Shown piece by piece: positions 12,465 through 33,796 of a stretch of 47,257 bases of DNA (positions within the stretch are counted from its first letter, which is position 1; every line of letters starts with the position of its first letter). Both the position numbers and the translations under genes were made by a program. Under the pieces are notes generated by a model that was given only the letters and a program-made list of their open reading frames with translations, ran no database searches and was not told where the DNA came from. The stretch spans positions 1 through 47,257 of the forward strand of contig JAPLTR010000701.1 of NCBI GenBank assembly GCA_026398065.1, read 5' to 3'. Source of the DNA: Verrucomicrobiota bacterium. Its GTDB lineage: Bacteria > Verrucomicrobiota > Verrucomicrobiia > Opitutales > Opitutaceae.

Positions 12465-12592
12465 AGCAGAAACGCGGCCAGGACCGGGACCGAAGTCAAG
12501 CGGCGCGCAAATCGCGCGTGTGACGGGGCGCGGCCGGTTTGTCCCTCGACAACGCGGTGGCGGCGCGGCTATTTCGGCGCTGTCGCTCACGA

Positions 12593-15500
12593 ATGAATCC
12601 ACCGATATCCGCATCGATCGCCGGGGACCCGCTCCCGACTCTCGCGGCCGGTTCGGTGCTGAACTTCGGGGTCGAGGCGGCTTTGGTCGTGGTGGCGCTG
12701 GGGGCGGGTTGGATGCTGGTCCGGCTGGCGAACCGCCGCGCGCGGGAGTTGCGGGCCAGCGAGGAGCGCTTTCGCGACCTGTTCGAGAACGCCGTCGAGG
12801 GCGTGTACGAGAACCCCGCGGAGGGCGGATTCCGCAGCGCCAACCCGGCCATGGCGCGGATGCTCGGCTTCGCAAGCGCGGAGGACCTGCTGAAGCTTTC
12901 GCCCGCCGACACCGCACGGCTCTATGTTTCGCCGACGCGGCGGGCGGAGTTCCTCGCGGCGCTGGGCACGGGGGACCGGGTGACGGACTTCGAGTCGGAA
13001 GTCAGACGCGCGGACGGCACGACGATCTGGATCAAGGAGAATGTGCGCGCGATCCGGGACCCGCAGGGCCGCCTGCTGTATTTCCAGGGATTTGTCTCGG
13101 ACATCACGGCCCGGCGGAAGACCGAGGCCGCGCTGCGCGCGAGCGAGCAGCGCCATCGGCACCTTTTCGAGCACTCGCCCGTGGCGATCGTGGAAATCGA
13201 CTCGCGGCCGACGATGAAGCGGCTCGCCGAACTGCGCGCGGAGGGCGTCACCGATCTGGCGGACTGGATGATCGTAAACCCGGCTGAGGCGGCAAAGCTG
13301 CTCGGACATTTTCTAATCATGGGCATGAACCGTGCGGCGCTGCAGCTGTTCGCCGCCCACTCCATGGAGGAGGTTTCGGCCAATCTCGCCCGCATCCTTA
13401 CCCCCGAGGCCGTCGTGGTCCGGCGCGAGGCTCTGCTGGCGGTGTGGGACGGGCGCAATCTGGTGGACGGCGAGATGCGGCTCACCGCGCTCGACGGAAG
13501 CATGCACACGGTCTACCAGCGGTGGTGGGTGCCCCTCGACGGCGACGAGCCACTGTTCGAGCGCACACAGCTGGCGTTCATCGATCTGACGGGCGTGAAG
13601 TCAGCGGAATCGGCCCTGCAGGCGAGCGAGAGCCGCTTCCGGATGCTGCTGGAGCAGTCGCCGGTGGCGGTCATCGAACATGATTTCAGGGAGACCAAGC
13701 TGCTGCTCGACGAGTGGCGGCGGGCGGGTGTGACTGACCTCGCGGAGCATTTCGCCGCGCAGCCGGAAGCGCTCACCATGGCGCTGGCGAAGGCGCGGTT
13801 GAGCACAATCAACACCGCGGCGCTGTTGCTTTTCGGTGACGGTGCACCGGCGGACGAACGGTCCTTTCGGGCGCGGATCAACTCGCCGGCCGTCAGCGCG
13901 GCGCGGAGGGAAAACCTGCTCGCCCTGTGGCGCGGCGACCTCGCGCACGAGGCCGAGATGGTTTTTGAAAGCGAACGGGGCTACCGGCCGCGGCACGTCG
14001 TCCAGAAGTGGTCCGTGCCCGTCATCGACGGGGTCCCCGCCTACCAATGGTCGCAGACGGTGCTGCTCGACATCACCGACATCCGGGCGGCGGAGGCGGC
14101 GCTCGCCGCCGAGCGCGCACGCCTGGTCGTGACACTGGGTGCGATGACCGAAGGCGTGATCACCACCGACCCGGCGGGCCGGGTGCAATATATGAACGGT
14201 GCGGCGGGCGCGCTCACGGGCTGGTCGCCGGACTCGGCGATGGGCCTGCCGATCGACCAGATCTGCCGGCTGACGGAGGAGAAGCAGCATCGCCCGGTCC
14301 TCGCGCCGGTGGCATCAGCGCTGGCGCGGGGCGCGCCGGTTGACCTGCCGCCGCGGACAGAGCTGCATGTGCACGCCGGCGGCGTCCGCCGCGTCGACGG
14401 CCGCTGTGCGCCGATGCATGATCCGTCCGGGCGCGGGATCGGGGCGGTGTTTGTGATGCGCGATGTGACCGAGAAATCGCGCTTCGAGACGGAAATTCTG
14501 CGGACCTCGAAACTTGAGTCGGTCGGCCTCCTCGCGGGTGGCATCGCCCACGATTTCAACAACCTGCTCGCGATCGTGATGGGCAACCTGACGCTCGCCC
14601 TCCTCGACGAGAAAACGGCGGCGGCCGGCGGGCGATGGCTACGCGAGGCCGAGCGCGGGACGACCCGTGCTCGCGAACTGACGCAGCAGTTGCTCACGTT
14701 CGCGAAGGGCGGCGAGCCGGTGCGCAGTTCGGTGCTGCTGCCGGACCTGGTGCGCGAGGCGGCGGAGTTTGCGTTGCACGGCTCGACGGTGAAGTGCGAG
14801 TTCGACCTCGCGGCGGATGTGCGGCCGGCCGATGCGGACAAGGGGCAGATCGGGCAGGTGGTGCAGAACCTTGTGATCAATGCCATGCAGGCCATGCCGG
14901 ATGGCGGCGTCATCCGGCTGCGGCTCTGCAATGAGATCCTTTCGGCAGGCGCGGTGCCGCCGTTGCCGGAAGGCGACTACGTGCGGCTGGAGATCACGGA
15001 TGGCGGGCGCGGCATTTCGCCGGAAAATCTGGGGCGAATCTTCGAGCCCTTCTTTACCACGAAGGAACACGGCACGGGGCTGGGCCTCGCGACGGTCTAC
15101 TCGGTGGTGCAGAAACACCATGGGCACGTCACCGTGGAATCGGAACACGGCCGCGGCGCGACTTTCCGGGTGTGGCTGCCGGCGGCGCGTACCCAACCGG
15201 CTCCGGTGGTCGCGTCGGCCTCGCCGTTCGACCTGATGAAGGGGCGGGTGCTGTTCATGGATGACGAGGAGTCGATCCGGGACATGACGAGCGCGCTGCT
15301 GAACCGTCTGGGGATGGAGGTCGTGGTCACGTCCGACGGCGACGCGGCCGTGAGCGAGTTCCTGCAGGCACGGGCGGGCGGCCGGCCATTCGACGTGGTG
15401 ATCTTCGATCTGACGGTGCCGGGCGGAAAGGGCGGTGCGTCGGCCATGAAGGAGATCCTCAGGCTGGATCCTTCGGCGCGTGGCATCGTGTCGAGCGGCT

Positions 15501-15619
15501 ATTCGAGCGATCCGGTCATGGCGAACTACCAGGCGCACGGTTTTCGCGGCAGTATCCCGAAGCCGTATCGCGTCACGGATTTCGCGCGGACATTGCGCGA
15601 GGTGCTGGCGGGAAAGTGA
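12593..15619 (+). CDS. Membrane-anchored hybrid histidine kinase with four PAS domains
   Basis: I use the ATG at 12593 (MNPPISASIAGDPL), giving 1008 residues. There is one membrane helix at about 23-45 (VEAALVVVALGAGWMLV), then PAS domains starting near 56, 183, 343 and 508 (SEERFRDLFENAVEG, SEQRHRHLFEHSPVA, SESRFRMLLEQSPVA, GAMTEGVITTDPAGRVQYMN). The kinase core has His653 in GGIAHDFNNLLA, and an ATPase domain with FEPFFTTKEHGTGLGLATVY. The C-terminal receiver has VLFMDDEESIRD and phospho-acceptor Asp939 in VVIFDLTVPGG. The HDFNNLL type of H-box is usual for multi-PAS kinases. PAS2 and PAS3 resemble each other, which suggests duplication. A free Hpt protein and a LuxR regulator lie just upstream on the map. 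The stimulus is unknown. Confidence 0.93.
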   Translation: MNPPISASIAGDPLPTLAAGSVLNFGVEAALVVVALGAGWMLVRLANRRARELRASEERFRDLFENAVEGVYENPAEGGFRSANPAMARMLGFASAEDLLKLSPADTARLYVSPTRRAEFLAALGTGDRVTDFESEVRRADGTTIWIKENVRAIRDPQGRLLYFQGFVSDITARRKTEAALRASEQRHRHLFEHSPVAIVEIDSRPTMKRLAELRAEGVTDLADWMIVNPAEAAKLLGHFLIMGMNRAALQLFAAHSMEEVSANLARILTPEAVVVRREALLAVWDGRNLVDGEMRLTALDGSMHTVYQRWWVPLDGDEPLFERTQLAFIDLTGVKSAESALQASESRFRMLLEQSPVAVIEHDFRETKLLLDEWRRAGVTDLAEHFAAQPEALTMALAKARLSTINTAALLLFGDGAPADERSFRARINSPAVSAARRENLLALWRGDLAHEAEMVFESERGYRPRHVVQKWSVPVIDGVPAYQWSQTVLLDITDIRAAEAALAAERARLVVTLGAMTEGVITTDPAGRVQYMNGAAGALTGWSPDSAMGLPIDQICRLTEEKQHRPVLAPVASALARGAPVDLPPRTELHVHAGGVRRVDGRCAPMHDPSGRGIGAVFVMRDVTEKSRFETEILRTSKLESVGLLAGGIAHDFNNLLAIVMGNLTLALLDEKTAAAGGRWLREAERGTTRARELTQQLLTFAKGGEPVRSSVLLPDLVREAAEFALHGSTVKCEFDLAADVRPADADKGQIGQVVQNLVINAMQAMPDGGVIRLRLCNEILSAGAVPPLPEGDYVRLEITDGGRGISPENLGRIFEPFFTTKEHGTGLGLATVYSVVQKHHGHVTVESEHGRGATFRVWLPAARTQPAPVVASASPFDLMKGRVLFMDDEESIRDMTSALLNRLGMEVVVTSDGDAAVSEFLQARAGGRPFDVVIFDLTVPGGKGGASAMKEILRLDPSARGIVSSGYSSDPVMANYQAHGFRGSIPKPYRVTDFARTLREVLAGK

Positions 15620-15650: not shown

Positions 15651-17444
15651 TCAGGCGCGCTTGGTGGTGGCGAGGCTGACGGCGAGCGCTTCGCGGGAGG
15701 CGTGGCGGTATTTTTCCGGGAGGAAACGCCGGTCCGAGCACGCGAGGACGGCGGCGAGTTCCTGCAGGGCGAGGAGGTTGGCGTCGAGCGGGTCGATGAA
15801 GGCGTCGACGGCGTCGCGCACGTCGGCGAGCTGCACATCGGTGTCGCGGAGGGCGAGGACGGCGCGCTCCTTCGCGCGGACGAGGATGGCCTCCACGTCG
15901 CTGCCGGTGAGGGCGCGGGCGCCGAGTTCGGTGCGCACGTAGGCGAGCGTCTCGGGGCTGAGCGCGATTTTTTTTACGCGGGCGATGACGGTGAATAGCT
16001 CGATGACTTCGTCGGCGTTCTGCGCGGCGAAGAGCGGAACGCAGAGGCCGAAGCGGCCCTGGCGCTTGAGGTCGATGGCCATGAGGTCGGGGCGCGAGGT
16101 CATCGCGATCCAAAGCTCCCGGCCGCGGAGCGACGAGTCCCCGAGGTGCGCGGCGAAGGAGGCGAAGACGCGGCTGGAAACGCCGCTGTCGCCATCGGCG
16201 GAGCGGTTGCCAAAGACGGCGTCGGCTTCGTCGACAACCACGATCACGGGGCCGAGGGCGCGGATCGTGAGGAGGATGCGGGCCTGCTGGCGCTCGGTTT
16301 CGCCGACCCATTTGGAGCGGAACTCGCCGATTTCCAGCACGGGCAGGCCGCACTCGCTGGCGAAGCAGTCGATGAGAAAGGACTTGCCGACACCGACGCG
16401 GCCGGGGACGAGGACGCCGCGCTCAAGCACGTCGTCCTTCTGGTTGCGGATGAGCCAGGCGAGTTCGCGGAGGCGGGCCTTGGCGGCGGCATGCGTGGCG
16501 ACCTGGTCGAGGGTGACGCCGGGGCGCGGATCCTTGAAACGGACGAGGCCCTGGCAGTAATCCTCGATGAGGCGGCGTTTGCCCGTGCTGACGAGCTCGA
16601 CGGTGAGTTTTTCCCCGGCGCGCAGGGCGGTGACGACAAGCTGCTCGACGCGCAGGAGGGCGAGACCGGAGGTGCGGCGCGCGAGATCGTCGGCGGGAAG
16701 GTGGCCGGAATCGGTGAGCTTCGCGCCGCGGGAGGAGCGGTCGAGCCAGCCGGATTCGAGGAAGGCGCGGCGCTCTGCGAGATCGGGCAGCGGTATCCGA
16801 ATGATGGCGACGTGCGGGTTCTGCACGAGGTCGGCGTGGAGTTCGGCAGCGGACTCGGTGACGAGCATCACGCCGATGTCGCCGAGCTGAAACTCGGGCG
16901 CCGCGGCCCACTTGAGCAGCGTGACGAGGGCCATGCGCTCATCGACACTGGCGCCGGACTCCTCGGCGGCGGGGACGAGTTTTTCCGGAAAGGCGATCAC
17001 GAGTGTCACGCCGCGATCGGCGGCGTTTTTCTCCCCGGCGGCGCTGAGAAAGAACCGGCGGAGGAGGGGCGTGAGCTGGCCGAAGGCCCGGGGCGGGCCC
17101 TCCTCATGGAAGTTGGTGTGTTCAACCTCGTCGTAGATCTTAAGCCACTCGAAGAAGCGCGTCTGCATCGCGGGCGAGGCGAAGGTGAGGCCCTCGCCGA
17201 TATCGTAGAACATCAGGCAGCCGCGGTCGGGGAAAAGGCGGCGCGCGAGGAAGGCGGGGAGCGGCGCGTAATCCGGCCGATCGGGACCAGTGCGAACCGG
17301 AAAGAGGTCGAAGATGTTTCCGTGAAGGAGAAACAGGGAGTGGGCGCCACCATTCCAGAGCCGGGCGAGGTCGGCGGCCCAGGCGGGGAGCGGGGCGCGG
17401 GCGGGCGTGGCGGAGGGGACCGGAGCGGCGGAAGGGGAAGGCAT
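15651..17444 (-). CDS. Classic AAA+ ATPase with degenerate first domain, PspA-locus partner
   Basis: The 597-residue protein starts at 17444 (MPSPSAAPVPSATPARAP), one base after the upstream stop, so translation is probably coupled. Residues about 30-300 look like a first AAA-type domain without Walker motifs (SLFLLHGNIFDLFP). The second domain is complete: Walker A GRVGVGKS at 348-355, a pore loop KWVGE near 378-382 as in Vps4, FtsH and katanin, Walker B VIVVVDEADA near 400, sensor-1 MTSRPD, and arginine-finger region RQGRFG. The two-domain arrangement resembles Ycf46-type ATPases. It is the last gene of a run with a membrane coiled-coil protein, a solute-binding/OmpA fusion and PspA. I infer that it remodels PspA assemblies much as Vps4 acts on ESCRT-III. 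Confidence 0.88.
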   Translation of the reverse strand: MPSPSAAPVPSATPARAPLPAWAADLARLWNGGAHSLFLLHGNIFDLFPVRTGPDRPDYAPLPAFLARRLFPDRGCLMFYDIGEGLTFASPAMQTRFFEWLKIYDEVEHTNFHEEGPPRAFGQLTPLLRRFFLSAAGEKNAADRGVTLVIAFPEKLVPAAEESGASVDERMALVTLLKWAAAPEFQLGDIGVMLVTESAAELHADLVQNPHVAIIRIPLPDLAERRAFLESGWLDRSSRGAKLTDSGHLPADDLARRTSGLALLRVEQLVVTALRAGEKLTVELVSTGKRRLIEDYCQGLVRFKDPRPGVTLDQVATHAAAKARLRELAWLIRNQKDDVLERGVLVPGRVGVGKSFLIDCFASECGLPVLEIGEFRSKWVGETERQQARILLTIRALGPVIVVVDEADAVFGNRSADGDSGVSSRVFASFAAHLGDSSLRGRELWIAMTSRPDLMAIDLKRQGRFGLCVPLFAAQNADEVIELFTVIARVKKIALSPETLAYVRTELGARALTGSDVEAILVRAKERAVLALRDTDVQLADVRDAVDAFIDPLDANLLALQELAAVLACSDRRFLPEKYRHASREALAVSLATTKRA

Positions 17445-17445
17445 G

Positions 17446-18381
17446 TTATTTCTCGGTAGCCGACTGGGGGGTGGCGCGCGCGGAGTCGGGGCGTAAAGCC
17501 CCTCCCGCAGTTCCGGAAAGGGTGGGACCGTTGACGGCGGGCATCTGCGCGGTGAGATCCTTGAACTCGGCGAGCTCGGAGAGCCATTTGTTGGTGGCGG
17601 CGAGGTGCTCGATGCTGAGGTCGATGCGGGCGGTGAGGGTGTCGGCGTTTTTCGCGGCGATGGCATCGGCGCGGATAAGCTTCACCTGCTCGACGAGGCG
17701 CTCCTGCTCGGAACGCACGAGATCGTGGTTGGCCTGGGCCTGCTCGATGCGGGTGACGCGCAGTCGGAGGGAGGAGAGGCGTTCGAGTCGCGAGGTGAGG
17801 AGGCGCTCCTTGCCGTCGAGGGTGGCCGGACGGGGAGAGATTTTTCTGAGGGACTCCACCTCGGCAGCGAGCGGTGGCGTCTCGGCCTCGAGGGTTTTGA
17901 CGAGGGCGGGAACCTGCTCGCGGCGCTCCGTCTCCAGGTAGACTTCGAGCGATTGCTCGATGTTGAGCATGCGGAGATAGGTCCAGGTGAGCTCGTCGAG
18001 CTTGCGGCGGGTATCGAGGCCGATCTCGGCCGTAGTCTGCGCCTCGGCGGAGGCGGACTCAATGTCGCGGCAGACGGCCACGAGCTGGGTGTAACGAGCG
18101 CGGCGGCCGGTGGAGAGATTCGCGAGGAGAGATTCCTGCTGTTTTTGAAAGGCGGCGAGCTGGGCGGCGGCCTCGGTGGCGTTGGCGGTCTCATTGCGGG
18201 CGTCGATGGCGCGGCGGAAGAAGGCGAGGTCCGGCACAAACACGAGACCGAGGGCATAGAGGGTGGCGCCGACGAAGAGGCCAAGCCCCGTGCCGCTCGC
18301 GAAACCGAGACCGAGCGTCAGGAGCGCGAGCCATGCGTGATGGCGGCTGGTCCAGAAGGCGCGGCGGTAGTTGGGGGGCAT
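17446..18381 (-). CDS. Membrane-anchored coiled-coil protein of the PspA locus
   Basis: The 311-residue protein starts at 18381 (MPPNYRRAFWTSRHHAW); further in-frame start codons upstream lie in dispersed repeat sequence. A basic N terminus is followed by two close membrane segments (LALLTLGLGFASGTGLGLFV and ATLYALGLVFVPDLAFF), which puts the rest in the cytoplasm by the positive-inside rule. Residues about 70-280 are Ala/Glu/Leu/Gln/Arg-rich heptads, a long coiled coil with little else. I do not recognise a named family. The gene is one base from the AAA+ ATPase start and follows the solute-binding/OmpA gene. Its layout suits a docking platform that links the inner membrane to the ATPase or to PspA. 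Confidence 0.8.
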   Translation of the reverse strand: MPPNYRRAFWTSRHHAWLALLTLGLGFASGTGLGLFVGATLYALGLVFVPDLAFFRRAIDARNETANATEAAAQLAAFQKQQESLLANLSTGRRARYTQLVAVCRDIESASAEAQTTAEIGLDTRRKLDELTWTYLRMLNIEQSLEVYLETERREQVPALVKTLEAETPPLAAEVESLRKISPRPATLDGKERLLTSRLERLSSLRLRVTRIEQAQANHDLVRSEQERLVEQVKLIRADAIAAKNADTLTARIDLSIEHLAATNKWLSELAEFKDLTAQMPAVNGPTLSGTAGGALRPDSARATPQSATEK

Positions 18382-18386
18382 GGGAG

Positions 18387-18512
18387 GAATGACGAATTCC
18401 GAATGACGAATGTCTAGTGACGAATGACGGAGGCCCAAGACCTAATCGCAGCACGGGAACCGTCTTTTTCGTCATTTAGCATCCGGCATTCGTCATTGCA
18501 CTCCGTCATTCC
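18387..18512. repeat. Dispersed GAATGACGAAT repeats in inverted blocks
   Basis: GAATGACGAAT occurs at 18387-18397 and 18401-18411, with a further partial copy near 18418-18429. The opposite orientation follows at 18465-18475 (TCGTCATT), 18487-18497 (CATTCGTCATT) and 18503-18511. The copy at 18402-18412 and the one at 18487-18497 are exact 11-base inverted repeats. Similar words are widespread between genes in Verrucomicrobiota and Planctomycetota. The block fills the gap between the solute-binding/OmpA gene, whose stop it overlaps, and the coiled-coil gene. Confidence 0.7.
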
Positions 18513-20167
18513 ACCGTGAACCACTGGACCTCGACGCGGCGGTTTTGGTCGGCGTCGGTGCCGGCGGGTTCCTCCCAGCCGCGGCCGACGGTCTCAAGGC
18601 GGGCGGCGTCAACTTTCAGGCGGTCGATGAGGACGCGCTTGATCTCGGCGGCGCGGTTCTTGGAAAGCTCCATGGACTTGAGGGCCATCTGGCGGACGAA
18701 GGCCTCGCCACCCTGCTGGCGGAATTTGTCAACGAGGGCGTTGTCGACGTGACCGCGGAGAAGGATGGTGGAGCCGGGGCTGACCTGCAGCAGGCGCTTG
18801 ATGGAATCGAGGGCGGCGAGGTTGGCCTGATGCGTGAGGTCAAGCTTGGCGGAGTTGGGCTCGAAAAGGAAACGGATGTCCTTGGTGAGGAGCGGATCGC
18901 CCTCAAGCGCACCCCCGGCGGTGCTGCGGATGGGGGCGAGCGAGACCTGCTGACCCGCAAACGCTCCGGCGGTCTGGAGCGCGTTGAGGTGGGTGGGGTT
19001 CATGTAGCGGTCGGCGTCGGTGGGCTGGTCGATGAGCGCGCCGTAGGCGAGGATCGCGGAGGAAAAGATTCCGCTGAAACTGCCGGCGGCGTCGATCGCA
19101 CCGGAGTAGAACGCAAGGTTCTCCGGAAGGTTGGAGAGGTGCACCTTGGCGAGTTCGGTGGTGGCCTTGGTGCGGTCCCATTTGAAGGCTTTCGCGATGG
19201 TGTCGAGGTGGGCGGCGGAGTTGTCGCGGACCAGGCGGTTGCCCTCCAGCACGCCCTCGACGAGGCCGGCGACGAGCTTGGGGTTGGCGGCGGCGAAGCC
19301 CTTGTTGACGACCAGAATGTCGCCCACGATGAGGAGGTTCTTGTTGGTGGTCAGGATCGTTGCGGCGCTCTTGCTGGCTTCGGCGATCTCAGTGGTCTTG
19401 GGAGCCCAGGTCACACAGCCGGCGAGGCGTGTGCCGCCGCTCTGCAGCTCTTTCAGGAAAAGGTCGCCGGCGACGAAGGCGTCCTTGGCGAAGAGGAGAT
19501 TGATCTTGGCGGGATCGGGGCGGTCGGCGGGATTGGCGAGCAGGTTCACGCCGAGGCCGGCTTCCTGCGCGAGGTAGCGGATGAAGAAGTCGGCCTCGGT
19601 GAACTGCGAGGTGACGAGGGTCTTGCCCTTGAGATCGTTGATGCGGCGGATCTCCTTGCGCACAACGAGGCCGTCGGCGCCGCGGGAGAAACCGATCTGG
19701 ACCGGGGCGGTGACCTGGAAATTGCGGCAGTAGGCGGCGAGAACGTCGACGGTGGTGGCAGAGGCGGCGATGCGGCCGGTGTTGAGGGCGGGCCAGCTTT
19801 CCTCCTCGCTGAGCTTGATGCGGACCTTGAAGCCGTGCTTGCGGAAGAAGAACGAGTTTTCGGTCGGCTCGAGGCCGCCGTTGGCGACGATGATGCCGGA
19901 GTAGCCGGCGTATTCGCTGAGCTCGAGATCGACGATGTTGTCCTTGGCGATATAGGTCCCGCCGGGAGGGAGGACGGGGCAGGCGTTGAGCGGGGCGATG
20001 AAGTCGGCGGCGTCGAGCGCCGCGGCCTTGGAGGGGGTGGCGGCGCCGGCCGCGATCGCCGCGGGGGCGGAGGCGTCGGGCCGGAGCTTGTCCCACCACT
20101 TGAAGGCGCCGAGGCCGGCGACCGCGAGGATGAGGAGCGTGAGGACGAATTTGCCGCGGGCAGTCAT
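18506..20167 (-). CDS. Solute-binding-protein domain fused to an OmpA peptidoglycan-binding domain
   Basis: The 553-residue protein has an N-terminal membrane anchor (LTLLILAVAGLGAFKWW), so the rest faces the periplasm. Residues about 60-390 resemble periplasmic binding proteins of the nitrate/sulfonate/phosphate type: LELSEYAGYSGIIVANGGLE, INDLKGKTLVTSQFTEADFF, VAGDLFLKELQSGGTRLAGC. Residues about 420-553 are an OmpA C-terminal domain: DIRFLFEPNSAKLD, ILLRGHVDN, ELSKNRAAEIKRVLIDRL, TVGRGWEEP, NRRVEVQWF, which binds peptidoglycan. No ABC permease or ATPase is nearby, so transport is unlikely. Between pspA and the membrane coiled-coil/AAA+ genes, it most plausibly senses a ligand or wall state and passes this to the inner membrane. 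Ligand unknown. Confidence 0.88.
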   Translation of the reverse strand: MTARGKFVLTLLILAVAGLGAFKWWDKLRPDASAPAAIAAGAATPSKAAALDAADFIAPLNACPVLPPGGTYIAKDNIVDLELSEYAGYSGIIVANGGLEPTENSFFFRKHGFKVRIKLSEEESWPALNTGRIAASATTVDVLAAYCRNFQVTAPVQIGFSRGADGLVVRKEIRRINDLKGKTLVTSQFTEADFFIRYLAQEAGLGVNLLANPADRPDPAKINLLFAKDAFVAGDLFLKELQSGGTRLAGCVTWAPKTTEIAEASKSAATILTTNKNLLIVGDILVVNKGFAAANPKLVAGLVEGVLEGNRLVRDNSAAHLDTIAKAFKWDRTKATTELAKVHLSNLPENLAFYSGAIDAAGSFSGIFSSAILAYGALIDQPTDADRYMNPTHLNALQTAGAFAGQQVSLAPIRSTAGGALEGDPLLTKDIRFLFEPNSAKLDLTHQANLAALDSIKRLLQVSPGSTILLRGHVDNALVDKFRQQGGEAFVRQMALKSMELSKNRAAEIKRVLIDRLKVDAARLETVGRGWEEPAGTDADQNRRVEVQWFTVE

Positions 20168-20398
20168 GGGAAAAAGAGGCTGAGGCGATCAGGTTGCGAA
20201 AGGTGGCGACGCGGGGAGTTAAAAAATGGATACGGCGACGCGTGGTGGAAACACGGAGGGTGTGCGGGAGGAGTGAGGGCCACTCGCTCACGCTCGCAGC
20301 CACGAGGGCGGAGGCCATTAGCGCGGGCGTGAGGATGGATTTGGCGTGGTCTGTTCGCCGCGCCCGCTCCGCCGGGCGTGGCGAAGGTGAAAAGGGCC

Positions 20399-21148
20399 TC
20401 AGCTCTCGGCGATCTTCTGACGCTCGGGAGCGGCGGTGGTGGGCGTGGTGGCGGCGGGCTGCACCATCCCCATCTTCTTCTGGTATTCCTTGAAGAGGGC
20501 GGCGCCGCGGGCCTTCCGCATCTCCTGCTGGCGCTGGATATTCGAGCCCATCTCCTTGGCGAGATCGAGGGTGGCACGCATCTGGCCCTCGCCGCCGGCG
20601 GCGGCCTGGCGGAGCTGCTGCATGGACTTGCCCATCTCGTCGCCCATCATCCCTTGAAGCTCGGTGACGGAACCCTTCATCAGGCCGGCGAGCTGTTCGA
20701 GTGAGCGGCCGACGGCGACCTTGGCCTTCACGGCCTCGACATCGCGCTGGAACTTTTGGATCTCGCGCAGGCTGTTGGCGATGATCTCGGTGTTTTGCTT
20801 GTAGAGGGCCTCGAGGCTTTCGAGCTGCGCGTTGTTGTCGGCGATGTCCTGCTCGATCGTACCGAGCTCTTCGGCGAAGTGGGCGCCGTTGGCCTCGTCG
20901 TTGGCGGCGGCGGCGGCCTGGAGGAGACCCTGCGTCTCGGTGCGCTGGCGCTCCTGGCGCTTCACCTGGTCCTTGAGCAGGGCGATCTGGCCGGCGAGCT
21001 GGCCGTTGGCGTAGTGGGCCTTGTCGGCCTTGGCCTTGGCGTCGCGGATGCCGCGTTCGACGACGGCCTGGTTGATGGCGTCGGTTTCGGTGGCCTGCTC
21101 GGCCATGAGGCCAAGATAAATGAAGAGGCGTTTGAAGGCGCGGAACAT
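20399..21148 (-). CDS. pspA: PspA/IM30 family membrane-stress protein
   Basis: The 249-residue protein has the PspA/Vipp1 layout: an N-terminal amphipathic helix (MFRAFKRLFIYLGLMAEQAT) and then nearly continuous coiled coil to about residue 225 (for example AHYANGQLAGQIALLKDQVK and LESLEALYKQNTEIIANSLR). The last 25 residues are a Pro/Thr/Ala tail. PspA proteins are the bacterial relatives of ESCRT-III. They bind stressed inner membrane and assemble into rods or rings. No pspF, pspB or pspC is nearby. Instead the same strand carries a solute-binding/OmpA fusion, a membrane coiled-coil protein and a classic AAA+ ATPase. The 231-base gap to the next gene is GC-rich with a possible hairpin at about 20358-20383, so PspA may be made in excess over its partners. 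Confidence 0.85.
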   Translation of the reverse strand: MFRAFKRLFIYLGLMAEQATETDAINQAVVERGIRDAKAKADKAHYANGQLAGQIALLKDQVKRQERQRTETQGLLQAAAAANDEANGAHFAEELGTIEQDIADNNAQLESLEALYKQNTEIIANSLREIQKFQRDVEAVKAKVAVGRSLEQLAGLMKGSVTELQGMMGDEMGKSMQQLRQAAAGGEGQMRATLDLAKEMGSNIQRQQEMRKARGAALFKEYQKKMGMVQPAATTPTTAAPERQKIAES

Positions 21149-21801: not shown

Positions 21802-23061
21802 ATGCTGCCTCTGGCCGACACTGCGAAACAAAAACGACCGGCGGTCGTGACGGGCTGCCTTGTCGCGGCGAACCTCGTCGTGTTTGGGTGGGAGCTGTGG
21901 CTGGGCTTCGCGAGGAGCGACCGGATGCTCGCGAGTTTCGTGACCGAGCACGCGCTGGTGGCGAAACGGCTGATCTATCACCCGATCGACGGCGACCAGT
22001 GGCTGACGGTGCTGACGCACATGTTCATGCACGGCGGTGTCGCACACCTGCTGGGCAACATGTGGTTTCTCTGGATCTTCGGCGGCAACGTGGAGGACCG
22101 GCTCGGGCCGGTGAAATACCTGCTGTTCTACCTCCTCGCGGGCGCGGCGGCGGCGGGGGCCCAGGTGATCGTCGATCCGTTTGCGACGGTCCCGATGCTG
22201 GGCGCGAGCGGCGCGATTTCGGGGGTGCTGGGCGCGTACCTGATCCTGTTTCCGACGGCGTGGGTGCTGGCCCTGGTGCCGTGGATCGTGCCGGTGCTGC
22301 CGGTGCCGGCGCTGCTGTTTCTCGTGGCGTGGTTCGCCTTCCAGATGTGGAGCGGGCTCGGAGCGATCGGGTCGGGCGTCGAGGGCGGCGTGGCGTGGTG
22401 GGCGCACGCGGGCGGAGCTCAGTGGCCGCCCTCGTCGAGGTCGCCGGGTTTGAGGAGGGGGGCGAAGGTGGCCTTGTTGGCGGCCTTCATGTACGCCTCC
22501 TTGGGCTCGATGGTGCCGTCCTTCACGCGGTTCATGAGGCTGTTGTCCATCGTGATCATGCCGTCGGAGCCGCCGCTCTCGATGATGGACTTGATGTTGG
22601 CGATCTGGCCGCTGCGAATGGTGTTGGGGAGCGCTTCGTGGGTGAGAAGGATTTCGTGGACGGCGCAGCGGCCCTTGGGGATGCGCTTGCAGAGGAGCTG
22701 GGCGACGACGCCGGCGAGGCAGCTCCCGAGCATGATGCGGACCTGGTTCTGCTCCTCGGCGGGGAAGGTGTTGATGATGCGGTCGACGGTCTTCGGGGCG
22801 TTGTTGGTGTGGAGCGTGCCGAAGACGAGCATGCCCATCGAGGCGCAGCCGAGCGCGAGCTTGATGGTCTCCATCTCGCGCATTTCGCCGAGGAGGAGGA
22901 TGTCGGGGTCGTGGCGCATCGCGCCCTTGAGCGCGGCGGCGAAGGAGGCCGTGTGCTCGCCGACCTCGCGGTGGACGATCACGCACTTTTTCACCGGGTG
23001 GACGAACTCGATGGGGTCCTCGATGGTGATGATGTGGCGCGCGAGATTGGTGTTAATGTAG
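21802..23061 (+). CDS. Rhomboid-family protease whose 3' end runs antisense into pilT
   Basis: Residues 1-205 are a rhomboid protease: FMHGGVAHLLGNMWFLWIFG, the catalytic Ser136 in GASGAISG, and the catalytic His202 in WWAHAGG. In relatives AHxGG is followed by the rest of the last membrane helix. Here the family match stops after Gly205 and the frame continues for more than 200 codons across the opposite strand of pilT (overlap from 22419) until a stop at 23061. The last helix therefore appears lost through a deletion that abuts the pilT 3' end, and any translated tail is antisense-encoded. That tail contains a hydrophobic stretch (KVALLAAFMYASLGSMV) that might replace the helix. The core domain is certain; the end and activity are doubtful. 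Confidence 0.65.
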   Translation: MLPLADTAKQKRPAVVTGCLVAANLVVFGWELWLGFARSDRMLASFVTEHALVAKRLIYHPIDGDQWLTVLTHMFMHGGVAHLLGNMWFLWIFGGNVEDRLGPVKYLLFYLLAGAAAAGAQVIVDPFATVPMLGASGAISGVLGAYLILFPTAWVLALVPWIVPVLPVPALLFLVAWFAFQMWSGLGAIGSGVEGGVAWWAHAGGAQWPPSSRSPGLRRGAKVALLAAFMYASLGSMVPSFTRFMRLLSIVIMPSEPPLSMMDLMLAIWPLRMVLGSASWVRRISWTAQRPLGMRLQRSWATTPARQLPSMMRTWFCSSAGKVLMMRSTVFGALLVWSVPKTSMPIEAQPSASLMVSISRISPRRRMSGSWRIAPLSAAAKEAVCSPTSRWTITHFFTGWTNSMGSSMVMMWRARLVLM

Positions 23062-23498
23062 TCGATCATCGCGGCGAGCGTGGTCGACTTGCCGGAGCCG
23101 GTGGGGCCGGTGACGACGACGAGGCCTTGGTCGAGATTGCAGAGTTTTTTCAGCGCCTCGGGGAGCTTGAGCTCGTCGAAGGAGAGGATCTTCGCCGGGA
23201 TCTGGCGGAACACGGCGGCCTGGCCCCAGTGGTTGTAGAGGTAGTTGCCGCGGAAACGCGCGAGGCCGGGAATCTCGTGGGCGAGGTCGAGGTCCTTGCG
23301 CTCAAGGAACTCGGTCCAGCGCTTGGCGGGGCAGATCTCCTTGAGGAGCGACTCCATCGTGGGGGCGTCGATGATCTTGTCGGCGAGGGGAACGAGCGAG
23401 CCGGACGCGCGGGTCTTCGGCGGGAGGCCGACGGTGAGGTGGAGGTCGGACCCGCCCTTTTCGAGCATGGAGCGGAGGAGGGTGTCGATGGCGGCCAT
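22419..23498 (-). CDS. pilT: PilT-type twitching motility ATPase
   Basis: The 359-residue protein starts at 23498 (MAAIDTLLRSMLEKGGSDLH), a standard PilT N terminus. It has the PAS-like N-terminal domain, Walker A GPTGSGKSTT, the Asp box ITIEDPIEFVH, Walker B HDPDILLLGEMREMETIKLA and the His box GTLHTNNAPKTVDRIINTFP. The Walker B neighbourhood reads GEMREMETI where GEMRDLETI is usual. PilT hexamers power type IV pilus retraction at the inner membrane. It lies 65 bases downstream of a small membrane protein gene and then a second, longer PilT, so two retraction ATPases are encoded together, comparable with PilT/PilU pairs. Its last bases overlap the truncated rhomboid. Confidence 0.95.
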   Translation of the reverse strand: MAAIDTLLRSMLEKGGSDLHLTVGLPPKTRASGSLVPLADKIIDAPTMESLLKEICPAKRWTEFLERKDLDLAHEIPGLARFRGNYLYNHWGQAAVFRQIPAKILSFDELKLPEALKKLCNLDQGLVVVTGPTGSGKSTTLAAMIDYINTNLARHIITIEDPIEFVHPVKKCVIVHREVGEHTASFAAALKGAMRHDPDILLLGEMREMETIKLALGCASMGMLVFGTLHTNNAPKTVDRIINTFPAEEQNQVRIMLGSCLAGVVAQLLCKRIPKGRCAVHEILLTHEALPNTIRSGQIANIKSIIESGGSDGMITMDNSLMNRVKDGTIEPKEAYMKAANKATFAPLLKPGDLDEGGH

Positions 23499-23563
23499 GG
23501 AGAATCGGAAGGCGAAGATCGGAGTTCGGAGAGGGGAGATCGAGGACGCCGGGTTAGACTGGG

Positions 23564-23878
23564 CTATGGCGTTCGGAAGGTGACTTTCACGGTCGGCTTG
23601 GAGAATCCGGAAATGTAGCAAAGCGCCCAGCCTTGGTGAACCTGTCCCTCGGTCGTTTCCGCGACAAATTCCAAGATCACTTCGCCGCGCCTTACCGCCC
23701 AATAAGGCCCGCCTCCGAAAATTTTCCGGCGCGTGTCTTTGATGACGTAACCGTGACTCTTCGCCCACTCCTGCAAAGATGCCACGGCGTCCGTGCTGTA
23801 GGCCCAGGTAATCACCCAGGCGAAGCCGCCCATGAGAGCCAAGCCGACGAATAGCACAAAAAAATCCTGCAGACTCAT
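23564..23878 (-). CDS. Small single-pass membrane protein between pilT genes
   Basis: This 104-residue protein has one N-terminal membrane helix (FFVLFVGLALMGGFAWVI) and then a small beta-rich soluble domain (RKIFGGGPYWAVRRGEVILE, VHQGWALCYISGF). I do not recognise a named family. It begins four bases after the stop of the long PilT gene and lies 65 bases before the second pilT, so it is probably part of that operon. Its place suggests a link to pilus function, but nothing in the sequence proves this. Third-position composition looks less biased than in its neighbours. Confidence 0.7.
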   Translation of the reverse strand: MSLQDFFVLFVGLALMGGFAWVITWAYSTDAVASLQEWAKSHGYVIKDTRRKIFGGGPYWAVRRGEVILEFVAETTEGQVHQGWALCYISGFSKPTVKVTFRTP

Positions 23879-23882
23879 AGGT

Positions 23883-25367
23883 TCACGAAATCTTCGCCTT
23901 CAGCACGCGGTTGGAGATGTTCATCTGGGCGGTTTCGGCGGTGATCTTCTTCTCGCGCCAGAGGCCGAAGACGACGTTGTCCATGAGGCACATTCCCTCC
24001 TTCACGCCGGTCTCCATGGTGTTGCGGAGGCCGGTGGTCTTGCCTTCGCGGATGAGGTTTTGGATCGCGGTGTTGCTGATCAAAATTTCGCAGGCGAGGG
24101 CGAGGGTGCCGTCCACGGCGGGGAGGAGGCGCTGGCAGGCGATGCCGCGGAGGCTCTCGGCCACGCTGGAGCGGATCTGCGTCTGCTGCGCGGGCGGGAA
24201 GACGTCGAGGAGGCGGTTGAGGGTCGTGGCGGCGTCGCTCGTGTGCATCGTACCGATGACCAAGTGGCCGGTCTCGCTGGCGCTGATCGCCATCTCGATG
24301 GTCTCAAGGTCGCGGAGTTCGCCGATGACGATGACGTCGGGGTCTTCGCGGAGGGCGCCCTTGAGGGCGGAGGCGAAGGACTTGGTGTGGGGGCCGACCT
24401 CGCGCTGGGTGACGTTGCAGCCTTTGGAGACCTGGACGACCTCGATGGGGTCCTCGACGGTGATGATGTGGTCGGTGCGCGTCTGATTGAGGTAGGCGAC
24501 CATCGAGGCGAGGGTCGTGGTCTTGCCGGAGCCGACGGGGCCGGTGATGAGGATGAGGCCGTTGTGGTAGGAGAGGAGCTTGTGGAGGGTCGCGATGTGC
24601 TGCGAGTAACCGAGGTCCTCGAGCGTGCGCGTGGTCGCGGGGACCATGCGGTAGGCGCCGGCCGCGCCGTTCTTGTGGAACATGAGGTTGACGCGGTAGC
24701 GCTCGGCGGCGCTGACGGCCAGGGCGTAGTCGAGGTCCTTTTTCTCGAGGAAAATCTTTTTCTGATGCTCGGCGAGGAGGGCGGTGTTGAGGCGGAGCGA
24801 ATCCTGCGCGGTGAGGACGTAGTCGGAGAGGTAGGCGAGCGCGCGGTTCTTCCGGATGAAAGGGCGGGCGCCGGTCGAGAGATGGAGATCGCTCGCGCCG
24901 TAGGCGACGGTGTCCTTGAGGAGCTTGCGGAGGGCGACGGCGACAGCGGTGTCGCTAAGGGCGGAGAGGGTGGCAAAGTCGAACTTCGGCGCGGCGCCGG
25001 TGGCCATCGGGGCTTTGGGCGCGGGCATGGCGATGGATGCCGGGGGCGGACGGACGGCGCCGAGATCGGAGGCGACACGGGGAGCGGCAGCGGCAGGGCC
25101 GGCCTGGACGAAGGGGGCGGCGCTCTCGTCCTCGTCGTCGAAGGGATCGCTGGCGGGCGGGCCGCGCTCGCCTTTGGTGACGGCGAGGTCGGCGCATTTT
25201 TCGAGCCGCTCAATGTCGGTGACAATGCCGGCATCGATGAGACCCTGCGCGAAGGACATGATGTCGCCCGCGGTGCCGATGGAGTCGCGGACCTTGAGGG
25301 CCTGAGGACGCGTGAAAAGGCCTTGGTCGATGCCGAGTCGGGCGAGCCAGCGGGTGTCGTTTGTCAT
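23883..25367 (-). CDS. PilT-like ATPase with long N-terminal extension
   Basis: The 494-residue protein starts at 25367 (MTNDTRWLARLGIDQGLFTR). The first 70 residues form a small helical domain (ALKVRDSIGTAGDIMSFAQG), followed by an acidic then Ala/Pro-rich linker to about 140. The rest is PilT: DTVAYGASDLHLSTGARPF, Walker A GPVGSGKTTT, ITVEDPIEVVQ, Walker B EDPDVIVIGELRDLETIEMA, and GTMHTSDAATTLNRLLDVFP. Typical PilT has about 350 residues, so the extension adds some 140. It is probably a second retraction or accessory motor in the manner of PilU, with the helical domain recruiting a partner. It heads a three-gene run with a small membrane protein and the canonical pilT. Confidence 0.92.
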   Translation of the reverse strand: MTNDTRWLARLGIDQGLFTRPQALKVRDSIGTAGDIMSFAQGLIDAGIVTDIERLEKCADLAVTKGERGPPASDPFDDEDESAAPFVQAGPAAAAPRVASDLGAVRPPPASIAMPAPKAPMATGAAPKFDFATLSALSDTAVAVALRKLLKDTVAYGASDLHLSTGARPFIRKNRALAYLSDYVLTAQDSLRLNTALLAEHQKKIFLEKKDLDYALAVSAAERYRVNLMFHKNGAAGAYRMVPATTRTLEDLGYSQHIATLHKLLSYHNGLILITGPVGSGKTTTLASMVAYLNQTRTDHIITVEDPIEVVQVSKGCNVTQREVGPHTKSFASALKGALREDPDVIVIGELRDLETIEMAISASETGHLVIGTMHTSDAATTLNRLLDVFPPAQQTQIRSSVAESLRGIACQRLLPAVDGTLALACEILISNTAIQNLIREGKTTGLRNTMETGVKEGMCLMDNVVFGLWREKKITAETAQMNISNRVLKAKIS

Positions 25368-25537
25368 GCGTGGCGGGGAAGTGCGCGGAGGTTGGCCGGG
25401 GGGCGGCGGCAAGCCAAGCGCGAAGGCGGCGAAGAGGCGCGAACTCCTTGCCTTCGGTGCGGTCTACGGGCATTCCATCCGGTCCCTGCTGCGGCCGGTT
25501 CCTCCACCTTCACTGCTGGTCACTTTCCTTCGCTTCC

Positions 25538-30052: not shown

Positions 30053-30757
<705 letters not shown>

Positions 30758-30824
30758 TCAGGTTTTAAAAAAAGCTGCGTCCGAGCGCGGGGTTCCGCGT
30801 CAGCAAGGGTGAGAAAGCAATCCT

Positions 30825-31709
30825 ATGAAAGACATCCAACTGCCCGATTCCGAGAAGATCCGTGAATTCGTTCGCGCCCGCTACGGCGCGATCGCCGAAC
30901 AGGCCGACGCCAGCTGTGGCTGCGGCCCGACCTGCTGCGCGGAGGAGGCGCCCGCCGCTACCGCCCAGCCCGTGGCAACTGCGGCGCAGGCCGCGACCGA
31001 GACCTGCTGTGCGCCCACCTGCTGCGGCGGGGAGAAATCGTATGGTGAAAAACTTGGCTATTCCGCCGCCGACCTGGCAGCGGCCCCGGCGGGAGCGGAC
31101 CTCGGACTGGGTTGCGGCAATCCCGTCGCCATCGCGGGGATCAAGCGGGGTGAGACCGTGCTGGATCTCGGCAGCGGGGCGGGCTTTGACTGCTTCCTGG
31201 CGGCGCGGCAGCTGGCCGGAACGGGCCGGGTGATCGGCGTCGACATGACGCAGGCGATGGTGACGAAGGCGCGAGCCAACGCGGTCAGGGGGATGTACCA
31301 GAATGTCGAATTCCGGCTCGGTGAGATCGAGGCGCTGCCGGTCGCAGACGCGTCGGTGGACCTCATTATGTCGAACTGCGTGATCAATCTCTCGCCGGAA
31401 AAAAACCGGGTCTTCAACGAGGCGTTTCGGGTGCTCAAGCCGGGTGGCCGGCTGGCGATTGCCGATGTGGTGGCGACGAAGCCGCTGCCACCCGAGCTGC
31501 GCGTGAAACTCGCGGCGATCGGCGCCTGCGTCGGCGGCGCGACGCCGGTGGACGAACTGCGGGCGTTGCTGACAGCGGCGGGATTCGGACGGGTCGAGAT
31601 CGTGCCGAAGGAGAGCTCGCGGGCGTACATCGCGCAGTGGACCGACGATACGACGGCGGGAGAATTTGTCGTGAGTGCGCTGATCACCGCGTATAAGACA
31701 ACAGTCTAA
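30825..31709 (+). CDS. arsM: Arsenite S-adenosylmethionine methyltransferase
   Basis: The 294-residue protein starts MKDIQLPDSEKIREFVRARY. The methyltransferase core has VLDLGSGAGFDCFLAARQL (SAM binding), GVDMTQAMVTKARANA, and the As(III)-binding cysteines in SNCVINLSPEK and AIGACVGGA. Before it lies YSAADLAAAPAGADLGLGCG, a typical ArsM block. The N-terminal region has two Cys-rich words, CGCGPTCC and CCAPTCC, separated by an Ala/Pro linker; relatives usually have one such word. ArsM methylates As(III) stepwise to volatile or less toxic forms. It is the first gene of the arsenic run, ten bases ahead of arsN2, and divergent from an aquaporin gene. Confidence 0.95.
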   Translation: MKDIQLPDSEKIREFVRARYGAIAEQADASCGCGPTCCAEEAPAATAQPVATAAQAATETCCAPTCCGGEKSYGEKLGYSAADLAAAPAGADLGLGCGNPVAIAGIKRGETVLDLGSGAGFDCFLAARQLAGTGRVIGVDMTQAMVTKARANAVRGMYQNVEFRLGEIEALPVADASVDLIMSNCVINLSPEKNRVFNEAFRVLKPGGRLAIADVVATKPLPPELRVKLAAIGACVGGATPVDELRALLTAAGFGRVEIVPKESSRAYIAQWTDDTTAGEFVVSALITAYKTTV

Positions 31710-31718
31710 ACCAGCGCG

Positions 31719-32180
31719 ATGAGGCCGTCGGACAGAATCGAGATTTTGCCTGCGACACCGGCAGAGATGCCGGAGGTCGCGGCGCTGTTGCGTGAGGCTG
31801 GCCTGCCGAGCGAGGACATTGGGGGGCAGGCGGGCCGGTTCCTCGTGGCTCGCCGGGGTGCCGCGGTCGTAGGCGCCGTGGGTGCGGAAGTGTGCGGGGC
31901 GGACGCGCTGCTGCGTTCGCTGGTGGTGGCTCCGGCGGTGCGTGGGGCGGGTCTCGGCGGCCGGTTGGTGGATGAGCTGGAGCGGGAGGCCGGGAGCTGG
32001 GGCGTCCGACGGTGGTGGCTGCTGACGACGACGGCGGAGCGGTTTTTTGCCGCGCGGGGTTTTCGCGGCGCCGGGCGGACGGAGGCGCCGGAGGCGATCC
32101 GCGCCACGGGGCAGTTTCGCGGCGGGTGCTGTGGCTCAGCGGTGTGCCTGACGCGCGAGCGGAAGGGGGGCGCACCATGA
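31719..32180 (+). CDS. arsN2: Arsenic-cluster GNAT acetyltransferase ArsN2
   Basis: The 153-residue GNAT protein shows the ArsN2 signature: LRSLVVAPAVRGAGLGGRLV for acetyl-CoA, then WWLLTTTAERFFAARGFR and EAPEAIRATGQFRGGCCGSA. The fixed end AVCL is also typical. ArsN2 genes recur in ars operons, but the substrate is not established; relatives of ArsN1 acetylate organoarsenicals. Its stop overlaps the sigma-factor start (ATGA), so translation is coupled. A second acetyltransferase of the ArsN1 type closes the same cluster. Confidence 0.9.
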   Translation: MRPSDRIEILPATPAEMPEVAALLREAGLPSEDIGGQAGRFLVARRGAAVVGAVGAEVCGADALLRSLVVAPAVRGAGLGGRLVDELEREAGSWGVRRWWLLTTTAERFFAARGFRGAGRTEAPEAIRATGQFRGGCCGSAVCLTRERKGGAP

Positions 32181-32731
32181 GCGTGATGGAATTCGATGCG
32201 GGGGTGACGGAGTTTCGCGCAAAGCTGCACGGGTTCATCCGGCGGCGGGTGCGAGACGAGACGACCGCCGACGATCTCACGCAGGAGACGTTGCTGAAAG
32301 TCTATCGTTCACGCGCGGCGCTGCGGGACGGACAGCGGCTGGAGGCGTGGCTGTACCGCATCGCGCGGACCACGCTCATCGATTTTTACCGGAGACAACG
32401 GCCGAGCGAGGAGCTGCCGGCGGCCGTGGCGGCGGAGCCGCCCGACGAGATCGCGCGGTTGCGCGAGGCGGTGATTGTCTCGATGCGGCGTTTTCTGGAA
32501 GAGCTGCCGGAGGCGTACCGCGAGCCGGTGCGGCTGGCGGAGCTGGAGGGCCTGCCACTGGCGAAGATCGCACTGCGGAGCGGGCTGTCGCTGACGGCGG
32601 TGAAGTCCCGCGTGCAGCGCGGGCGGGCGATGCTGAAGAAGAAACTGCAGGACTGCTGCCGGTTCGAATTCGACCGACAGGGCAAGGTGATCGGGTGGGA
32701 GAAGCGCCCGGCGAAGCCGTGCGCCTGCTGA
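32177..32731 (+). CDS. sigZ: ECF-type sigma factor, SigZ-like, in the arsenic cluster
   Basis: The 184-residue protein has sigma regions 2 (ETTADDLTQETLLKVYRSRA, LEAWLYRIARTTLIDFYRRQ) and 4 (LPEAYREPVRLAELEGLPLA, SLTAVKSRVQRGRAMLKKKL). The extra C-terminal tail contains DCCRFEFDRQGKVIGWEKR and ends KPCAC, the pattern of SigZ proteins. No anti-sigma gene is adjacent. The four tail cysteines (CC and CxC) could bind As(III) or another soft metal and so make this a one-component regulator, but that is inference. It starts inside the arsN2 stop and ends 74 bases before arsR. Its target promoters are unknown. Confidence 0.88.
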   Translation: MSVMEFDAGVTEFRAKLHGFIRRRVRDETTADDLTQETLLKVYRSRAALRDGQRLEAWLYRIARTTLIDFYRRQRPSEELPAAVAAEPPDEIARLREAVIVSMRRFLEELPEAYREPVRLAELEGLPLAKIALRSGLSLTAVKSRVQRGRAMLKKKLQDCCRFEFDRQGKVIGWEKRPAKPCAC

Positions 32732-32769
32732 GGCGAAAGCGACAATTGAGCGACAAGGCATTTCGCCGC

Positions 32770-33201: not shown

Positions 33202-33244
33202 TCGGCTTCAGCTGCCGTTGGACGAGAGCAGCCCCCTGAAATTT

Positions 33245-33778: not shown

Positions 33779-33796
33779 TTTCGTAGTGACATTACC

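Follow-up and report, generated by a model that had tools for sequence, protein, structure and literature searches.

A candidate PspA-AAA+ ATPase system for envelope remodelling in a Verrucomicrobiota genome

The four-gene locus and its products

The stretch of DNA analyzed here (47,257 nucleotides of contig JAPLTR010000701.1, assembly GCA_026398065.1, from a Verrucomicrobiota bacterium of the Opitutaceae; hereafter the window) contains, at positions 15651-21148, four minus-strand genes in the order PspA, PBP-OmpA, CC and AAA (Table 1), that is, a PspA family gene, a periplasmic binding domain fused to an OmpA domain, a transmembrane (TM) coiled-coil protein and a tandem AAA+ ATPase. An earlier note on this DNA, made from the sequence alone, had described four same-strand genes with these domains, the last two one base apart; the coordinates and the strand are confirmed, and so is the single base between the CC stop codon (17448-17446) and the AAA ATG (17444-17442). 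The other intergenic gaps are longer, 231 bases between PspA and PBP-OmpA and 124 bases between PBP-OmpA and CC, and the latter gap (18382-18505) appears by eye to hold several copies of a short ATTCGTCATTC-like repeat. The start of CC was taken as an ATG within an open reading frame (ORF) of 330 amino acids (aa), and the AAA ORF, of 671 aa, begins upstream of the gene start, inside CC. No permease or ABC ATPase gene is present inside the window cluster. The host assembly (7.2 Mb, 1004 contigs, 89.5% complete) contains one long match to the window AAA. Given that the four-gene set recurs in other genomes (see below), the arrangement is more than a chance grouping.

Table 1. Genes of the cluster and the motifs discussed in the text (positions in the window).
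Feature	Position	Strand	Description
PspA	20399..21148	-	249 aa; PspA/IM30 family (bacterial ESCRT-III superfamily)
PspA extreme C-terminal tail QKIAES	20402..20419	-	conserved short motif after a variable linker, from alignment
PBP-OmpA	18506..20167	-	553 aa; NMT1/SsuA-type periplasmic binding domain and OmpA domain, N-terminal hydrophobic segment
CC	17446..18381	-	311 aa; TM-hairpin protein with a long helical (coiled-coil) part, no known family
Predicted CC TM hairpin, residues 13-51	18229..18345	-	model helices H13-29 and H32-51
AAA	15651..17444	-	597 aa; tandem AAA+ ATPase, degenerate N-terminal and catalytically complete C-terminal AAA domain
HGN motif, residues 41-43, degenerate first AAA domain	17316..17324	-	G42 and N43 in 30/30 sequences, H41 in 27/30
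Walker A GRVGVGKS, second AAA domain	16380..16403	-	G351, G353 and K354 in 30/30
Pore loop KWVGE	16299..16313	-	W379 and G381 in 30/30
Walker B VVVDE	16227..16241	-	D405 and E406 in 30/30

The ATPase matches the Pfam AAA family (PF00004) with an E-value of 4.8e-17 over residues 418-540 of the 671-aa ORF. The AlphaFold2 model, obtained from 30 sequences (mean predicted local distance difference test, pLDDT, of 88.9), consists of two alpha/beta AAA-type domains in tandem; among the best 50 Foldseek matches, the closest are p97/Cdc48 chains and MSMEG_0858, aligned over about the full length, with tandem p97-type chains covered over 563-637 columns. The sequence profile is likewise closest to VCP-like, NVL, AFG2 and Cdc48 chains, with two matched stretches in the VCP-like chains. 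The two-domain AAA+ protein of the earlier note is therefore retained, with the addition that the first domain is degenerate: it has no GKT/S and no Walker A motif at the P-loop position, where an unchanged GN is found. In the second domain, the arginine-finger candidates R461 and R464 are unchanged in all 30 sequences, along with the motifs listed in Table 1. Walker A and B motifs, an aromatic pore loop and arginine fingers are generic traits of classic AAA ATPases, and a KWVGE-type pore loop is not diagnostic of Vps4, so the suggestion that this loop makes the protein like Vps4 had to be dropped. A Pfam scan of AAA at E 0.1 detected no MIT domain, and the model shows a single helix (residues 21-32) followed by an alpha/beta AAA-like domain; the CdvC model scores 35 bits against a cut-off of 650. 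Given the tandem AAA domains, the undetected MIT domain and the greater proximity to VCP-like and Cdc48 chains, membership in the Vps4 family is ruled out. The first AAA domain begins approximately 20 residues into the protein, so a p97-type N domain is lacking as well. By its profile and model, the protein is classified as Cdc48-like, with tandem AAA domains of which the first is degenerate.

The window PspA matches the Pfam family PspA_IM30 (PF04012) with an E-value of 2.7e-4 and 21.1 bits, which is below the cut-off of 33.9. Its identity stands because 14 of the 17 aligned relatives match PF04012 (best E-value 3.5e-15) and because the profile of these relatives aligns to a Vipp1 structure chain over residues 1-201 (7.4e-6). 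A search of the host genome with profile A3 gave one PspA match.

The CC protein is conserved in relatives and belongs to no recognized family: a scan of the 330-aa ORF against Pfam and NCBIfam gave no match at E 0.1, and in a Pfam scan of 21 CC relatives no family was matched by more than one of them. In its AlphaFold2 model, built from 21 sequences with a mean pLDDT of 88.9, residues 13-51 form a helical hairpin, and long helices follow; pairs of arginines flank the predicted TM hairpin on both sides, which suggests a cytoplasmic location for the rest of the protein. We also considered CC as a possible relative of PspA, but profile comparison gave no support (hhalign probability 0.8%) and no homology is detectable, with the proviso that coiled coils defeat both profile and fold comparison. 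Foldseek found no match at E <= 0.001; its weak hits, at best E 0.14, were to coiled-coil, BAR-type and transporter structures and were not used as evidence, and Snf7 is not named among the best 50 of 429 matches.

In the PBP-OmpA fusion, Pfam recognizes OmpA (1.1e-11) and NMT1 (7.1e-5), the NCBIfam SsuA and OmpA-type models match below their cut-offs, and the N-terminal hydrophobic segment was read from the sequence.

Co-occurrence and co-divergence across genomes

Among 57 relatives, a long AAA match (E < 1e-35) and PBP-OmpA are found in exactly the same 6 genomes (p=2.8e-8, uncorrected for kinship). The 6 matches counted span most of the protein and the next one is at 2.4e-11; at E <= 0.001 the same search matches 55 of the 57 genomes because generic AAA proteins are picked up. 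The phylum was also surveyed over 288 genomes. Of these, 12 have a strong AAA match, 14 the PspA subtype, 9 CC and 12 PBP-OmpA. All 12 genomes with the AAA also encode the PspA subtype, each of the 9 with CC encodes the other three proteins, and the complete set is present in 9. The 12 AAA matches classified as strong have E-values of 3.8e-193 or better, out of 17 genomes matching at 1e-40; the remaining 5 matches (5.8e-67 to 2.4e-50, approximately 470 residues) were treated as a second lineage, outside the 12. PF04012 at 1e-5, a threshold that misses the window PspA, identifies 32 of the 288 genomes, of which 26 have no strong AAA match; accordingly, the link with the AAA concerns a PspA subtype rather than PspA in general.

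The gene order was analyzed at 44 PBP-OmpA loci, one genome per species, collected with the PBP-OmpA alignment; the scan relied on two short exact peptide patterns, so that divergent PBP-OmpA genes were missed. These loci come mostly from metagenome-assembled genomes (MAGs) of Verrucomicrobia, Acidobacteria and Planctomycetota, and the nearest relatives are Opitutaceae MAGs. A single run of all four genes on one strand, allowing gaps of up to 2.6 kb and intervening genes, is present in the window and in 18 other genomes, 19 in total, in three orders: PspA-PBP-CC-AAA in the window and 13 others, PBP-CC-PspA-AAA in 2 and CC-AAA-PspA-PBP in 3. Within these runs, the AAA of L042, at the end of a contig, is spread over two overlapping frames, and other genes intervene in L080 and L200-L202. 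At 29 of the 44 loci the AAA is not seen; when 19 of the respective genomes were searched whole, a full AAA was found elsewhere in 17 (E <= 7.6e-138), the loci left out of this check including L040, L058, L059, L062, L064, L072, L073, L075 and L082. Within 2.6 kb of the 17 split-off AAA genes, on the same strand, CC was found in 8 cases, PspA in 4, both in 1 and neither in 4. The earlier note had considered that its proposal would fail if the genes did not stay together in related genomes; the cluster is indeed split in many cases, but the genes are then still found together in the genome, and altogether the gene set stays together, with exceptions.

The co-occurrence is matched by co-divergence. 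Over 22 genome sets, which were hand-picked from the loci, with G067 left out as it has no PspA and with at least two truncated proteins included (the AAA of G064 and the PspA of L077), pairwise protein distances give a correlation of 0.975 for PspA and AAA (partial correlation 0.913), 0.878 for CC and AAA and 0.858 for PspA and CC. The correlations of PBP-OmpA are much lower, 0.225 with PspA, 0.285 with CC and 0.307 with AAA. This contrast within the same genomes speaks against kinship being the entire explanation of the PspA-AAA correlation. The earlier idea that a wall signal passes through the OmpA/binding protein and the coiled coil to the ATPase finds no support here, with coefficients of 0.22-0.31 for PBP-OmpA; its largely independent divergence is as compatible with a swappable input module as with a core part. 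On these distances, PspA, AAA and CC can be read as the core of the system and PBP-OmpA as an exchangeable input.

In three genomes (G226, G229 and G185), PBP-OmpA is only 29-31% identical to that of the window and PspA and AAA are 64-79% identical, and a permease, plus an ABC ATPase seen in two of the three, stands between. The complete run in these genomes is VWA, PspA, PBP-OmpA, permease, ABC ATPase (seen in G229 and G185), CC and AAA; in the respective clusters (L200-L202), the permease was identified by PF00528 (3.8e-16, L200) and the ABC ATPase by PF00005 (2.8e-30, L201). Two close relatives, G012 and G013, have neither gene within their clusters, and other ABC genes lie several kb away in G012. 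A VWA gene is located just upstream of PspA in ten loci (L041, L043, L046, L048, L051, L053 and L199-L202; read by eye, with Pfam checked for L199 and L200) and is likely to be a further partner. No VWA gene adjoins PspA in the window, and the L199 VWA protein found nothing in the host genome, a search run with no positive control.

PBP-OmpA also occurs in another context (L059, L061, L069, L072, L211, L212 and L213), where mostly one or two small genes for membrane or lipoprotein-like products precede it; L212 and L069 appear to be the same contig. In the genomes of L061, L069 and L211-L213 no strong AAA match was found.

The more distant second AAA lineage (L194-L198) has comparable surroundings: in L194 it is near PspA-like, VWA and NMT1-type genes, and several other loci are near PspA-like and binding-protein-like genes. 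The PspA-type genes match PF04012 at 4.5e-9 (L194) and 1.7e-4 (L196). We classify this lineage, from its gene neighborhoods, as a putative parallel version of the PspA-AAA assembly.

The C-terminal tail of PspA

The PspA proteins of the system, including relatives with as little as 17-23% identity to that of the window, end in a short tail, for example QKIAES, KLGESA, KEIGPQ or TMGPVSQ. A loose pattern, [ILM][GASTD][PEGQ] within the last 12 residues, which is a loosened version of the initial one with the stretch shortened to 12 residues, is present in 47 of 47 system PspAs and in 2 of 22 other PspAs of the phylum. The AAA is confirmed on the contig or in the genome for 42 of the 47 and is not itself confirmed for L040, L058, L073, L081 and L082. 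The 22 controls were taken from the 30 loci L113-L142, after dropping L130 (wrong ORF picked), L135, L137, L138 and L140 (system members) and L141 (which adjoins a second-lineage AAA), with L139 and L142 counted separately as the two PspAs without an AAA. In both of these PspAs, which are of the same type and come from genomes of one genus without a detected AAA (G112 and G121), the pattern is missing. Among the PspA-like candidates adjoining AAA genes of the second lineage, 3 of 4 end in LPE or LPEN, which fit only a pattern widened with proline in the middle position; the printed ends of these candidates would fail the unwidened pattern. Given that the pattern was defined post hoc and then loosened, it is a lead, not proof. 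The published accounts, in the portions examined, contain no mention of a tail motif of this kind, which may still be in print.

Interpretation, alternatives and significance

We propose, with a probability of roughly 0.6, that the four genes constitute one envelope-remodelling system in which the AAA pulls on or dismantles PspA, to which it would be recruited by the C-terminal tail. What the sequences themselves show is the four-gene set and how its members occur together, the co-divergence of PspA with the AAA, the pattern in the PspA tails and the presence of the catalytic residues. PspA would polymerize on the inner face of the cytoplasmic membrane, like the ESCRT-III-superfamily relatives for which this is known; polymer formation has been reported for relatives of PspA (PMC11746142, in the portions examined). 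The AAA would form a ring that, using ATP in the second domain, pulls PspA subunits past the W379 pore loop and so turns over or dismantles the polymer. The degenerate first domain could serve as a docking platform, and the short conserved tail of PspA would be the element that the AAA engages, in the role played in ESCRT-III/Vps4 by the pairs of MIT domains and MIT-interacting motifs (MIM). CC, whose gene is one base from the AAA gene, may anchor the ATPase at the membrane. PBP-OmpA, presumably tied to peptidoglycan, might report a periplasmic ligand or the state of the wall or, alternatively, might be a receptor left behind after loss of the ABC importer with which it is associated elsewhere.

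A neighborhood of this kind has already been described. In section 18 of their paper (for example, OGG56892.1), Ravi et al. (2024; PMC11237479) report an association of PspA with a two-domain AAA protein whose first domain is inactive, and with TM-bearing Snf7 homologues, an ABC ATPase, a permease and PBPB-OmpA; they predict ESCRT-III/Vps4-like ATP-dependent remodelling for the PspA-AAA neighborhood and suggest a link to solute transport. The window shares PspA, the two-domain AAA, PBPB-OmpA and a TM coiled-coil-type protein with the neighborhood as given there. It differs in having no ABC ATPase and permease, which according to the same account occur in longer operons and are not obligatory, and in the lack of detectable homology between CC and the PspA profile, unlike the TM-bearing Snf7 homologues. 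By its gene content, the window locus is best classified as a transporter-less member of this neighborhood. The earlier note's proposal of an AAA+ ATPase dedicated to PspA, strengthened by the 12/12 co-occurrence and the distance correlation of 0.975, had thus already been made, and the interpretation of that note is, overall, partly supported. What appears new, as far as the portions of the published accounts examined extend, is the pairing of subtypes, the co-divergence, the tail pattern and the frequent VWA neighbor; those of PMC11237479 contain no counts of co-occurrence and nothing on co-divergence or a tail motif of PspA, and the main text of the 2022 Psp survey (PMC9239133), within the same limits, does not mention OmpA, Vps4 or VWA, with AAA in the reference list only.

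Like the ESCRT-III/Vps4 pair of eukaryotes and the CdvB/CdvC pair of archaea, the locus combines an ESCRT-III-superfamily protein with a classic AAA ATPase carrying an aromatic pore loop, and its PspA has a candidate short C-terminal motif. Unlike Vps4 and CdvC, the window AAA is a tandem protein with a degenerate first domain and no MIT domain found, and the tail pattern is one that we take to be unlike MIM. The tandem architecture and the best fold and profile matches are shared with Cdc48/p97, AFG2, NVL, VCP-like proteins and MSMEG_0858; the window AAA differs in having no p97-type N domain and no Walker A motif in the first domain. With the classical Psp system (PspF-PspABC), the common element is PspA. 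The earlier note stated that the classical partners are absent; for PspC (PF04024) there is indeed no match in the host assembly (89.5% complete), using a model that matches in 7 of 14 control genomes, and for PspF and PspB no search was made. PspF is an NtrC-type transcription activator and a different kind of AAA+ protein (PMC11237479, same portions), and Liu et al. (2021; PMC8281802) leave open, in the portions examined, whether PspF is Vps4-like for PspA and whether an equivalent ATPase assists Vipp1.

Several observations weigh against the proposed system or narrow it. Part of the PspA-AAA correlation stems from the division into two clusters: among the 15 type-1 genomes it falls to 0.770, below that of CC and AAA (0.936), with PBP-AAA at 0.503, and among the 7 type-2 genomes each of the six pairs, including those with PBP-OmpA, is above 0.91. 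Among the 288 genomes, 3 have the AAA and PspA without CC or PBP-OmpA, 3 have PBP-OmpA and no AAA (L211-L213, where the surrounding genes are different), and 2 have the PspA subtype without the AAA; these absences are provisional given the number of best candidates scored per genome (4 for AAA, 4 for PBP-OmpA, up to 9 for PspA and 8 for CC). Likewise, the AAA was not found in 2 of the 19 PBP-OmpA genomes searched whole. The profiles A6 and A8 were built from system members, so that the co-occurrence is that of the subtypes. The tail pattern was first noticed in the 17 aligned PspAs and defined once every tail had been printed. Shuffling the tails still yields it in 17% of them, and 12 of the 47 linkers contain it as well; the stricter first pattern, with the preceding residue fixed and sought in the last 15 residues, fits 44 of the 47 system PspAs, neither of the two PspAs without an AAA, and 44 of 49 overall. 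One distant second-lineage candidate (L198) lacks even the widened form. Finally, ATP binding and slow ATP hydrolysis have been reported for PspA itself (PMC11746142), and the turnover of Vipp1 has been ascribed to Hsp70-type chaperones (PMC13051332; both in the portions examined), which implies that not all PspA-family proteins require an AAA of their own.

These data have to be weighed against three other explanations. The genes could belong to a ligand-sensing or transport-coupled system, with PBP-OmpA and an ABC importer at its center and with PspA, AAA and CC maintaining the membrane or the transporter assembly, the importer having been lost in the window. The permease and ABC ATPase within the runs of G226, G229 and G185 and the solute-transport link suggested in PMC11237479 (portions as above) fit this explanation. 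We nevertheless consider it unlikely, given that no permease or ABC ATPase is found inside the clusters of the window, G012 and G013, that PspA, CC and AAA co-diverge over the 22 genomes with PBP-OmpA largely separate, and that in three genomes with PspA and AAA neither CC nor PBP-OmpA was found. Somewhat less probable still is that the AAA is a Cdc48-like unfoldase or chaperone for damaged membrane proteins, with PspA as a scaffold or adaptor and not as the substrate. The closest profiles and folds (VCP-like, NVL, AFG2, Cdc48 and MSMEG_0858) are indeed those of tandem AAA proteins, and CC, which adjoins the AAA gene in many arrangements, shows the tightest co-divergence with it within type 1. 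Against this explanation, in the 288 genomes a strong AAA was not found without the PspA subtype (12/12), whereas CC was not found in 3 of these 12 genomes; moreover, the PspA tail resembles a client or docking tag, although an adaptor could also have one.

The intergenic gaps of 231 and 124 bases, which make a single transcript uncertain, and the absence of the set from 51 of the 57 relatives would also be compatible with fortuitous neighbors, that is, separate envelope genes that adjoin by chance in Opitutaceae. The same genes are clustered in several orders and in several groups, and they are co-present in the genome when split, which makes this explanation very improbable.

The rest of the window contains several other regions of note. 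Tail to tail with the AAA gene, on the opposite strand, is a PAS-rich hybrid histidine kinase with a receiver domain (12539-15619), for which there is no evidence of belonging to the PspA-AAA system. Two PilT-like ATPase genes, named from the sequence, are located beyond the divergent neighbors of pspA (22419-25412), and similar genes are found upstream of the VWA-PspA cluster in L041 (2512-4420); given their presence near both loci, the synteny may reach beyond the four genes. An arsenic-type cluster at 30053-35338 comprises a MIP (aquaporin-family) protein, a methyltransferase that is Cys-rich in its N-terminal part and presumably resembles ArsM, a low-molecular-weight phosphatase-family protein, presumably of the ArsC type, and an SBF-family transporter, presumably of the ACR3 type. 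Between 36000 and 44000 the G+C content drops from approximately 65-66% to 51-60%, in a region that encodes a large tetratricopeptide repeat (TPR) protein and a polysaccharide-export (Poly_export/SLBB) protein and is perhaps an acquired exopolysaccharide island.

Returning to the envelope-remodelling system, the counts reported here make the proposal of Ravi et al. concrete: the AAA is found each time with one PspA subtype (12/12), with a candidate tail and a candidate anchor. A more specific version, which we advance tentatively and consider less likely than not, is that of a bacterial ESCRT-III/motor pair, in which a Cdc48-like tandem AAA would use its dead first domain as the receptor of the PspA tail, with CC as the tether, and the tail motif (a hydrophobic residue, a small one, then proline or glutamate) would be an analogue of the MIM/MIT pair without an MIT domain. 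If true, this would be a bacterial ESCRT-III/motor partnership with a different mode of docking, and it would bear on how Vps4 became paired with ESCRT-III.

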